A stretch of 64,000 bases of DNA, from NCBI RefSeq assembly GCF_027107535.1, contig NZ_CP114283.1, positions 6,820,001 to 6,884,000 of the forward strand, written 5' to 3'. The notes under the pieces were generated by a model. The model was not told where the DNA came from, did not search any database, and saw only the letters and a program-made list of their open reading frames with translations. Positions within the stretch are counted from its first letter, which is position 1; each line of letters begins with the position of its first letter. The position numbers and the translations under genes are program-made. This document shows positions 58,643 through 63,264 of the stretch, piece by piece. The DNA comes from Streptomyces aurantiacus. Lineage in GTDB: Bacteria > Actinomycetota > Actinomycetes > Streptomycetales > Streptomycetaceae.

Positions 58643-60568
58643 ATGAGAAAGCGCGACCGAACTCCCAAGACGTACAACCGACTTCAGTATCCCCTGGTCC
58701 GTGACTCCCGTGACGAGCCGTTCCGGCGCGCCACCTGGGACGAGGCCCTGGAGCGTGCCGCCCGGGGCCTCGGCGCCGCACGCGGCGCGTTCGGCATGTT
58801 CTCCTGCGCCCGCGCGACCAACGAGATGAACTACGTGGCACAGAAGTTCGCCCGCGTGGTCATGGGCACCAACAACGTCGACTCCTGCAACAGGACCTGT
58901 CACGCGCCCAGCGTGGCGGGCCTGTCGGCGGCCTTCGGCTCGGGCGGCGGGACGTCCTCCTACGGGGAGGTCGAGCACACGGATCTCATCGTGATGTGGG
59001 GCTCCAACGCCCGCTTCGCGCACCCGATCTTCTTCCAGCACGTCCTGAAGGGGATCAGGAACGGCGCCCGGATGTACGCGGTCGACCCGCGCCGCACGTC
59101 CACGGCGGAGTGGGCCGAGAGCTGGCTCGGGCTGAACGTCGGCACGGACATCCCGATGGCCCACGCGATCGGCCGCGAGATCATCCGGGCGGGGCTCGCG
59201 AACGACGCGTTCATCGAGCGGGCGACCACCGGCTTCGAGGAGTACAAGCAGCTCGTCGAGCCGTGGACGCTGTCACTCGCCGAGAAGGTGACGGGCGTAC
59301 CGGCCGCAGCGATACGGGAGTTGGCGCACGCCTACGCCCGCGCCGAGCGCGCCCAGCTGTGCTGGACGCTCGGCATCACCGAGCACCACAACGGCACGGA
59401 CAACGTCCGCGCGCTCATCAACCTGACACTGCTGACCGGCCATGTGGGGCGCTTCGGCTCGGGTCTCCAGCCCCTGCGCGGGCAGAACAACGTGCAGGGC
59501 GGCGGCGACATGGGCGCCATCCCGAACCGGCTGCCCGGCTTCCAGGACATCCTCGATCCGGACACCCGGCTGAAGTTCGAGTCCGCGTGGGACACCGTCA
59601 TCCAGCCCCACTACGGGATGAACCTGACGGAGATGTTCGAGGCCATGGAGGAGGGCACGCTCAAGGCCGTCTACTGCATCGGGGAGAACCCGGCGCAGTC
59701 GGAGGCCGACAGCGGGCAGGCCGTACGGCGCATGCAGGGCCTCGACTTCCTCGTCGTGCAGGACATCTTCCTGACGAAGACGGCCGAACTGGCGGACGTC
59801 GTCCTGCCCGCGACCGCGGGCTGGGCGGAGACCGAGGGCACGACCACCAACAGCGAACGCAGGGTCCAGCGGGTGCGCCGGGCGGTCACCCCGCCCGGCG
59901 AGGCCCGCGAGGACATCGACATCATCTGCGACCTGGCCTCCCGGCTCGGCCACGAGTGGAAGTACGCGGACTCCGAATCCGTGTGGAACGAGCTGCGGTC
60001 GGTGTCCCCGGACCACTTCGGGATGACGTACGAGCGGCTGGAGGAGCACCAGGGCATCCAGTGGCCGTGCCCGGACCCGGACAAGCTCGAACCGACCTAT
60101 CTGCACGGCAGGTTGTGGGCAGCCGACCCGGCCGAACGCGGCCGGCTCGCTCCCTTCGGGCTGGTCCAGCACGACCCGCCGGTCGACCTGACCGACGAGG
60201 AGTACCCGATCCGGCTGACCACCGGGCGGCGGCTCGACTCGTACAACACCGGGGTGCAGAGCGGCAGTTTCGCCTCGCCGCTGCGGCGCGGCGAGTACGT
60301 CGAGCTGTGCCCGGAGGACGCGGAGCGCTACGGCGTGGTGGTCGGCGAGGAGGTCCAGGTGTCCTCGCGGCGTGGCGCGGTGGTGGCGCCGGTGTGGGTC
60401 GACACGGCACTGCGGCCCGGCCTCGCCTTCATGACCATGCATTTTCCCGACGAGGTGGACACCAACCAGCTGACGATCGAGGCGAACTGCCCGATCGCGG
60501 GGACGGCGGAGTTCAAGGCGTCGGCGATCCGGATCGACAAGCTGCCGGTTGCTCTTCAAGTGAGGTGA
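58643..60568 (+). CDS. Formate dehydrogenase large subunit, catalytic (molybdopterin) half
   Basis: 641 residues of the bis-MGD oxidoreductase family. The Mo ligand is Cys86, followed by His87, in SCNRTCHAPSVAGL, as in Cys-type formate dehydrogenases. MWGSNARFAHPI, RGQNNVQGGGDMG, AVYCIGENPAQSE and a C-terminal molydopterin-binding domain (LTTGRRLDSYNTG, FPDEVDTNQLT) follow. The usual N-terminal CxxCxxxC...C [4Fe-4S] segment is absent: the protein opens in the linker right after that point (YNRLQYPLVR...FRRATWDEAL). The missing segment is encoded two genes downstream at the end of the 62404-63264 product. It oxidises formate to CO2. Confidence 0.9.
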   Translation: MRKRDRTPKTYNRLQYPLVRDSRDEPFRRATWDEALERAARGLGAARGAFGMFSCARATNEMNYVAQKFARVVMGTNNVDSCNRTCHAPSVAGLSAAFGSGGGTSSYGEVEHTDLIVMWGSNARFAHPIFFQHVLKGIRNGARMYAVDPRRTSTAEWAESWLGLNVGTDIPMAHAIGREIIRAGLANDAFIERATTGFEEYKQLVEPWTLSLAEKVTGVPAAAIRELAHAYARAERAQLCWTLGITEHHNGTDNVRALINLTLLTGHVGRFGSGLQPLRGQNNVQGGGDMGAIPNRLPGFQDILDPDTRLKFESAWDTVIQPHYGMNLTEMFEAMEEGTLKAVYCIGENPAQSEADSGQAVRRMQGLDFLVVQDIFLTKTAELADVVLPATAGWAETEGTTTNSERRVQRVRRAVTPPGEAREDIDIICDLASRLGHEWKYADSESVWNELRSVSPDHFGMTYERLEEHQGIQWPCPDPDKLEPTYLHGRLWAADPAERGRLAPFGLVQHDPPVDLTDEEYPIRLTTGRRLDSYNTGVQSGSFASPLRRGEYVELCPEDAERYGVVVGEEVQVSSRRGAVVAPVWVDTALRPGLAFMTMHFPDEVDTNQLTIEANCPIAGTAEFKASAIRIDKLPVALQVR

Positions 60569-60574
60569 TGCCAA

Positions 60575-62407: not shown

Positions 62408-63264
62408 CCGTGACACCGCTGGGGATCCCCCGTCGTCTGCTGGAGTTCACGCTCGACGGTGAGCCCGTGCGGGCACCCGAGGGCGCGACGATTCTCGATG
62501 CCTGCCGGTCGGCGGGCAAGGACATCCCGACCCTGTGCCAGGGCGACACGCTGGCGCCCAAGAACGCCTGCCGTGTGTGTGTCGTCGAGGTCGAGGGCGC
62601 GCGCACACTCGTCCCGGCCTGCTCCCGCACGGCGGAGGCGGGTATGCAGGTCCGGACGGACACCGAGCGGGCCCGGCACAGCCGGAAGATCGTCCTCGAA
62701 CTCCTCGCCTCGTCGGTCGACCTGTCGACCACCCCGGAGGTCGCCGGGTGGCTCAAGGAGTACGAGGCCAAGCCCGACCGGTTCGGTCCCGACGCGGCCC
62801 GTCTCAACGAGGAGCCGAAGGTCGACAACGACCTGTATGTGCGTGACTACGACAAGTGCATCCTCTGCTACAAGTGCGTGGACGCCTGTGGCGACCAGTG
62901 GCAGAACACCTTCGCGATCTCGGTCGTCGGCCGCGGTTTCGACGCCCGGATCGCCGTCGAGCACGACGCTCCCCTCACGGACTCGGCGTGCGTGTACTGC
63001 GGGAACTGCATCGAGGTGTGCCCGACGGGTGCCCTGTCGTTCAAGTCGGAGTTCGACATGCGTGCGGCGGGTACGTGGGACGAGTCGGCGCAGACCGAGA
63101 CGACCACGGTGTGCGCCTACTGCGGAGTGGGCTGCAATCTCACCCTGCACGTACAGGACAATGAGATCGTGAAGGTCACCTCGCCGCACGACAACCCGGT
63201 GACCCACGGCAACCTCTGCATCAAGGGCCGCTTCGGCTACCAGCACGTACAGAACCGGGACTGA
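62404..63264 (+). CDS. Formate dehydrogenase large subunit, iron-sulphur (N-terminal) half
   Basis: 286 residues. A plant-type [2Fe-2S] domain (Cys45, Cys56, Cys59, Cys73) is followed by a 2x[4Fe-4S] ferredoxin domain (Cys152/155/158/162 and Cys196/199/202/206). It ends with the Mo-bisPGD [4Fe-4S] domain (Cys237, Cys240, Cys244, Cys272; CAYCGVGC and GNLCIKGRFGYQHV). This is the N-terminal third of an FdsA-type large subunit, stopping where the catalytic half at 58643 begins. The two products together (927 residues) match a usual FdsA of about 950. The His-Cys [4Fe-4S] site of NuoG-like proteins is not evident. Confidence 0.88.
   Translation: MTVTPLGIPRRLLEFTLDGEPVRAPEGATILDACRSAGKDIPTLCQGDTLAPKNACRVCVVEVEGARTLVPACSRTAEAGMQVRTDTERARHSRKIVLELLASSVDLSTTPEVAGWLKEYEAKPDRFGPDAARLNEEPKVDNDLYVRDYDKCILCYKCVDACGDQWQNTFAISVVGRGFDARIAVEHDAPLTDSACVYCGNCIEVCPTGALSFKSEFDMRAAGTWDESAQTETTTVCAYCGVGCNLTLHVQDNEIVKVTSPHDNPVTHGNLCIKGRFGYQHVQNRD

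Follow-up and report, generated by a model that had tools for sequence, protein, structure and literature searches.

The catalytic domain and the pterin-proximal iron-sulfur domain of a predicted formate dehydrogenase are encoded by separate genes in Streptomyces aurantiacus and its relatives

All formate dehydrogenases (FDHs) are said to share a subunit in which the bis-molybdopterin guanine dinucleotide and the proximal [4Fe-4S] cluster are bound together (PMC7171172), and a review says likewise of every solved FDH structure (PMC10478512). MeFDH1 of Methylorubrum extorquens (7vw6, 8j83) has one [2Fe-2S], two [4Fe-4S] and the proximal [4Fe-4S] cluster in its alpha part, together with the metal and its Cys; flavin mononucleotide (FMN), [4Fe-4S] and [2Fe-2S] all belong to one beta chain (PMC10478512). 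In RcFDH, of the FdsABG type (6tg9), FdsA is a single chain and FdsB and FdsG are separate. We analysed a stretch of 64,000 nucleotides from Streptomyces aurantiacus, here called the window (NCBI RefSeq assembly GCF_027107535.1, contig NZ_CP114283.1, positions 6,820,001 to 6,884,000 of the forward strand), in which three adjacent forward-strand genes (58643..63264) hold the parts of such an enzyme, with the alpha chain divided between two genes that stand in swapped order. In the openly accessible literature, in the parts that were available, we found no description of a split FDH alpha chain.

The first gene (58643..60568) encodes the catalytic subunit (P0001, 641 residues), an FDH-type protein for molybdenum or tungsten bis-pyranopterin guanine dinucleotide (bis-PGD) that consists of Molybdopterin and Molydop_binding (PF00384 and PF01568) and no other Pfam domain, so that the N-terminal [4Fe-4S] domain is missing. 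From the sequence and its relatives the metal ligand position is Cys86 of the motif RTCHAP (codon TGT, 58898..58900), with His87 next to it. The second gene (60575..62407), which has a GTG start, encodes a diaphorase, a fusion of NuoE and NuoF (P0002, 610 residues) with the domains 2Fe-2S_thioredx (PF01257), Complex1_51K (PF01512), SLBB (PF10531) and NADH_4Fe-4S (PF10589), which amounts to a thioredoxin-like [2Fe-2S], an FMN/NAD and a [4Fe-4S] domain; its matches in the PDB are HydB, HoxF, NuoF and FDH beta chains. The third gene (62404..63264), whose start overlaps the end of the second through ATGA, encodes an iron-sulfur subunit (P0003, 286 residues) that corresponds, as a protein of its own, to the N-terminal third of FdsA. 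By Pfam profiles and conserved cysteines it has one [2Fe-2S] domain, Fer2_4 (62434..62664; Cys45, 56, 59 and 73), two ferredoxin-like [4Fe-4S] sites in Fer4-type domains (62845..63036; Cys152, 155, 158, 162, 196, 199, 202 and 206) and Molybdop_Fe4S4 (PF04879, residues 232-284; 63097..63255), the pterin-proximal [4Fe-4S] site, with Cys237, 240, 244 and 272 plus Lys274. The alpha chain of MeFDH1 is described with an identical set of clusters (PMC10478512). An earlier reading of this locus, made from the sequence only, had recognised the missing iron-sulfur segment in the downstream 286-residue protein and a fused NuoE-NuoF gene between the two halves, and the Pfam domains agree with both, with the wording that there are three [4Fe-4S] sites in all. 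That reading would have failed if the catalytic gene really started upstream with its own CxxCxxxC motif, but the 27 codons between the start and the upstream in-frame stop hold no cysteine and no CxxC motif.

The two chains tile a single alpha chain. In sequence alignment the iron-sulfur subunit covers residues 25-307 of RcFdsA (6tg9_A) and the catalytic subunit, from its residue 12, covers 307-931, and in the NCBIfam Fdh-alpha model TIGR01591 the same two proteins match positions 1-52 and 51-672. The claims that the 641-residue protein begins in the linker after the [4Fe-4S] segment, and that an alpha chain has been split with its halves in swapped order, are thus confirmed by the domain profiles and alignments. 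The predicted folds of the two proteins together also tile the MeFDH1 alpha chain. The catalytic subunit has its top phmmer score to FdhF of the hydrogen-dependent CO2 reductase (HDCR; 7qv7_S) and its top Foldseek rank to E. coli FDH-H (1fdi), with MeFDH1 and FDH-H equal in Z. TIGR01591 is an equivalog model with a cut-off of 666.25 bits, and neither half reaches it (615.4 bits for the catalytic and 54.4 for the iron-sulfur subunit), nor does the catalytic protein of locus L120 (658.9); the two window scores taken together would exceed it.

The locus has much in common with the FdsA/MeFDH1 type, namely a bis-PGD domain with Cys/Sec-His and Arg (Sec, selenocysteine), a HoxU-like [2Fe-2S]/[4Fe-4S] relay, here as a separate chain, and a NuoE/NuoF-type diaphorase alongside. 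Joined end to end, the two chains show the domain order of RcFDH, which has NAD+ diaphorase partners as well, and the cysteine pattern of the iron-sulfur subunit gives one [4Fe-4S] fewer than the four assigned to FdsA (PMC7171172). It differs in that the proximal [4Fe-4S] is not on the bis-PGD polypeptide and that the diaphorase does not precede the alpha chain; the MeFDH1 alpha chain carries its proximal cluster in cis on one polypeptide, whereas the window has two genes separated by that of the diaphorase. In the HylCBA-FdhA systems of Clostridium acidurici and Desulfotomaculum, which are likewise NAD-linked FDHs with a diaphorase and a separate iron-sulfur subunit, HylA, the cut lies before the pterin-proximal cluster and FdhA retains its own 4Fe-4S domain, while here it lies after that cluster (PMC5736913). 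The catalytic domain is also like that of E. coli FDH-H (FdhF) and HDCR FdhF, and differs from them in that the N-terminal [4Fe-4S] is in cis there and absent from the window chain. To our knowledge, E. coli FDH-H and HDCR FdhF have no NAD diaphorase.

It is very probable that the three genes encode one FDH that reduces nicotinamide adenine dinucleotide (NAD+), with the pterin-proximal cluster supplied in trans. Supply in trans, which the sequence-only reading had proposed, would follow from the anatomy together with the conservation of the cluster. The physical assembly of the enzyme, its activity, substrate, direction, metal and cellular place we infer from sequence, as we do the fission discussed below. 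The catalytic subunit, the NuoE-NuoF diaphorase and the separate iron-sulfur subunit would assemble and work like FdsABG or MeFDH1, and the catalytic subunit, with its Mo/W-bis-PGD and Cys (or Sec), would be where formate is oxidised. The first electron step would cross a subunit interface to the C-terminal domain of the iron-sulfur subunit with its [4Fe-4S] cluster and conserved Lys, from where electrons would pass the two other [4Fe-4S] clusters of that subunit, the FMN of the diaphorase and finally NAD+. The active site would be sulfurated by FdhD, an FDH maturation factor whose sulfurtransferase gene adjoins the operon (63271..64000, forward strand; NF001943, 327.7 bits against a cut-off of 269) and extends past the end of the window (complete as L009:13271-14134). 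In two Chloroflexota loci, FdhD genes were observed downstream of the split operon on the opposite strand (L177:13101-13961 and L224:11872-12726, both on the minus strand).

The ligands were compared in those 110 of 135 split loci in which all three parts are nearly complete. The 16 cluster cysteines of the iron-sulfur subunit are invariant in 110/110, and Lys274 is conserved in at least 99% of these loci and shows no variation in alignment A2 (57 rows). Cys86, His87 and Arg279 of the catalytic subunit are invariant in alignment A3, with Sec passed as Cys. The Cys/Sec, His and Arg have known roles in FDHs (PMC8808070), and at Lys44 of E. coli FDH-H, the match of Lys274, replacement by Arg alone retained formate oxidation (PMC12176258). 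The cluster and the pterin of E. coli FDH-H are 6.1 Å apart, edge to edge (PMC12176258).

The split, which the sequence-only reading had suggested looking for in actinomycete genomes, was found there and, by the record labels, outside Actinomycetota as well. We searched 40 relatives besides the own genome, 24 of them of the same genus; a complete orthologue (85-92% identity) is present in seven of these 24 and a fragment at a contig edge in one more, and at all eight loci the NuoE-NuoF gene and then the iron-sulfur gene follow the catalytic gene as in the window. Matches were present in 25 of 394 genomes sampled evenly across the class (at least 883 bits) and in 40 of 396 sampled evenly across the phylum (at least 832 bits), own genome included in both. 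Over the 56 split loci from the genus, class and phylum samples, window included, the iron-sulfur gene is downstream in 52, and the other four (L075, L077, L084 and L104) all end at contig ends. A further set comprised the best 80 of at least 579 relatives on named contigs, a set that favours UGA forms because the first sequence in that scan was of the Sec type. The cis Fe4S4 motif is absent from all 80, and the order catalytic, NuoE-NuoF, iron-sulfur is seen in 68; six show the catalytic and NuoE-NuoF genes and three the catalytic gene alone, on contigs that end soon after. By their labels, which can err, these 80 loci represent about ten phyla: Actinomycetota, Chloroflexota, Acidobacteriota, Gemmatimonadota, Planctomycetota, Rokubacteria, Eremiobacterota and Dormibacterota, with one Spirochaetaceae bin and one Bacillota bin. 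All but one (79/80) are metagenome-assembled genomes (MAGs), the single isolate being Aquisphaera insulae (L223). Among protein relatives, the best 120 of 8000 scored have PF00384 and PF01568 alone, and the named hosts are nearly always Streptomyces.

Some variation in spacing was also observed. In L177, L186, L191, L194, L195, L203 and L209, 6 to 8.5 kb separate the start of the catalytic gene from that of the iron-sulfur gene, and L177 has about 2.7 kb of additional DNA between the catalytic and NuoE-NuoF genes, with an open reading frame that has no NCBIfam match. The NuoE-NuoF linker of L035 is about 270 nt longer than that of the window, and in L072 and L074 there is a gap of about 130-140 bases before the iron-sulfur gene, where the window has an overlap.

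The codon of the catalytic residue separates the split loci into two forms, with UGA in 103 of the 135, Cys in 31 and N in one. Among the best 80 of at least 579 named loci it is UGA in all 80, and in the phylum sample an in-frame TGA occurs in 34 of the 35 matches from other genera, the 35th (G598) having a run of N there. A GGUCU loop, which we take to be the loop of an E. coli-type selenocysteine insertion sequence (SECIS), stands after the codon in 95/97 distinct UGA-type stretches as compared to 1/31 of the Cys type, and a stem of six pairs directly behind the codon is found in 96/97 and 2/31, respectively. GGT, the glycine codon required for this loop, accounts for 11% of the Gly codons in the downstream parts of the UGA genes (all loci). 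A tRNA-Sec of at least 60 bits is present in 22 of the 24 genomes taken as the UGA form (UGA was seen in 23 of them; G598 has N) and in 4 of 20 genomes of the Cys form; the two UGA-form genomes without a match are 89% (G676) and 80% (G061) complete. Judged by these sequence features, the UGA with its SECIS-like hairpin is read as selenocysteine in the relatives. The window enzyme is the Cys form (TGT) and lacks the marks of a Sec-FDH, and a search of its own genome gave neither a tRNA-Sec nor a SelB match over the cut-offs.

A quick tree of 80 catalytic domains, with the Shimodaira-Hasegawa-like approximate likelihood ratio test (SH-aLRT) as the only support measure, places the 54 split rows in one clade (SH-aLRT 100). 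Its sister (100) is a clade, f60 (L139-L145), of FdhF-like chains with a cis Fe4S4 domain only and one in-frame stop (TGA); no NuoE-NuoF match was found near these loci. The nine Cys rows, among them the window, form one clade (100) nested within the UGA forms. In a tree of the Fe4S4 domain (53 columns, 14 split rows) the split rows group with f60 (support 97/96), consistent with a single ancestral chain for both halves. Most likely, as far as the trees can tell, a Sec-containing ancestor had a single chain that was cut by fission at the linker behind the Fe4S4 domain, and the Streptomyces-like lineage of the window most likely swapped Sec for Cys later. The order of catalytic, NuoE-NuoF and iron-sulfur genes is a cyclic shift of NuoE, NuoF and iron-sulfur-catalytic, and in the eight loci that have a fused chain and a match to the NuoE-NuoF protein (L089-L094, L150 and L153) the diaphorase is upstream of the chain. 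If the operon had been duplicated in tandem and the copies had then lost different halves, the swapped order would result. The split may instead have come about by assembly of an FdhF-like catalytic gene without cluster domain and the N-terminal module of an FdsA operon without catalytic domain, a view that concerns the origin only and that we consider unlikely, though worth keeping in mind. The sister clade is indeed FdhF-like with only a cis Fe4S4, and mean identities lean towards this view: for the catalytic domain the split family is closest to f60 (0.538), and for Fe4S4 it is closer to fused Sec chains than to f60 (0.467 as compared to 0.437; 0.481 and 0.463 in another run). On the other hand, the Fe4S4 domain of f60 is divergent from other groups too (0.332-0.383), and the 53-column tree groups it with the split family.

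Several observations weigh against a single enzyme that descends from one chain. Few columns underlie the Fe4S4 tree, in which f60 is a long branch nested among the split rows. The fold of the iron-sulfur subunit has a slightly higher Z to complex I and hydrogenase chains than to FDH chains, and in its model the predicted local distance difference test (pLDDT) is below 50 at residues 161-163, 165-177, 194-200 and 275-278, near cluster ligands. Distance-matrix (mirror-tree) correlations are moderate, with r 0.64-0.77 and no background control, and in mutual information over 93 rows the share of the top pairs between the catalytic and iron-sulfur subunits that fall in the Fe4S4 domain is 0.23-0.31 as compared to 0.21 expected, and these pairs look clade-dominated. 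Three of the 80 named loci (L169, L181 and L206; Chloroflexota, UGA form) have no NuoE-NuoF or iron-sulfur gene within about 7 kb downstream, and their partners may be elsewhere in the genomes. It is conceivable from the indecisive covariation, from these three loci and from the separate HylA subunits known beside FdhA (PMC5736913) that there is no stable single complex. In that case the iron-sulfur and NuoE-NuoF proteins would be a general NADH module that binds only transiently, or to other partners, and the electrons of the catalytic subunit would go elsewhere. We regard this as improbable. The operon linkage is kept in 68 of the 80 named loci and nine of the other 12 are cut by contig ends; furthermore, the other four Fe4S4 domains of the genome adjoin a catalytic domain, and the catalytic subunit of the window has none of its own.

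If the three proteins form one FDH, it could still act in vivo as a CO2 reductase, or as a dehydrogenase of another small substrate, rather than oxidise formate. Sequence cannot reveal direction or substrate, and several metal FDHs act as CO2 reductases (PMC11503769). The conserved Cys/Sec86-His87 and Arg279, the nearest solved and profile relatives, which are FDHs, and the adjacent FdhD argue for formate oxidation, and we give this alternative slightly less chance than that of a loose association.

The genome was also searched for another source of the missing domain. It has eight PF00384 and five PF04879 matches; four of the five PF04879 matches stand 13-82 bases before a PF00384 match, and only that of the iron-sulfur subunit does not. 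Three further PF00384 matches besides the catalytic subunit also have no PF04879 in front. Among all these matches there is no full-length FdsA of which the window genes could be decayed copies, a finding that would have spoken against the sequence-only reading. One candidate for such a chain, L006, resembles NuoG. Of the three without PF04879, L004 is presumably a protein of the dimethyl sulfoxide reductase type without the motif, and L007 and L008 we take to be of the FdhF/YdeP type, with an atypical CPGC stretch in cis. Split genes often mean decay or misassembly, and a swapped order would otherwise be odd, but the idea of leftovers from a disrupted FdsA gene, or of a contig assembled in the wrong order, is ruled out by conservation across relatives and has hardly any probability left, because the split, the order (both recurring in many genomes at 59-94% identity) and the ligands (110/110 loci) are kept, an isolate outside Actinomycetota has them besides the MAGs, and no single frameshift could join the halves as iron-sulfur and then catalytic part, since the iron-sulfur part lies downstream.

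The catalytic domain and the proximal cluster here come from different genes and have stayed so in about ten phyla, going by the record labels; the first electron-transfer step and the Lys would then lie across a subunit interface. Such an interface would let assembly, the contact between cluster and pterin, and catalysis be separated by simple mixing, unlike in single-chain FDHs. The split also falls into a blind spot of annotation, since each half stays under the TIGR01591 cut-off and ordinary gene calling cuts the UGA forms further. A contig of a Lost City Chloroflexi MAG with focA, fdhA, nuoG, hoxF and hoxE, compared by its description, reads in gene content like a split operon annotated piecemeal; the MAG carries Sec biosynthesis genes, and the accessible part of the paper describes NADH dehydrogenase genes next to an FDH alpha gene and does not mention a split alpha chain (PMC7117926). 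It may be a split operon that was not recognised as such. A bolder reading, which we offer tentatively and think rather doubtful as a whole, is that these loci form a widespread unrecognised class of NAD+-linked FDHs with a detachable active-site subunit, to which the proximal [4Fe-4S] and Lys dock in trans, so that assembly could gate cofactor insertion, protection of Sec or the metal from oxygen, or coupling to NAD+. The class would have been overlooked in environmental phyla because the halves score below annotation cut-offs and are often cut by UGA, and it might be a main route of formate oxidation there.

The genes upstream of the operon give no link to an oxalate pathway. The major facilitator superfamily transporter gene next to it but one (55931-57523, minus strand) is below the cut-offs of the lactate-transporter and oxalate/formate-antiporter models, and no match in the genome reaches the cut-off for oxalyl-CoA decarboxylase, so we claim no such pathway. 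The protein encoded at 26119-27738 (plus strand) scores 249.6 bits with the oxalyl-CoA decarboxylase model, as compared to a cut-off of 739.4, and is thus some other relative of the family. The remaining neighbours are a 2-dehydropantoate 2-reductase homologue (57610-58575, plus strand), a GntR-like regulator (53872-54648, minus strand) and a FabH-type ketosynthase (54700-55638, minus strand), and locus L030 likewise has a FabH-type gene near its split operon.

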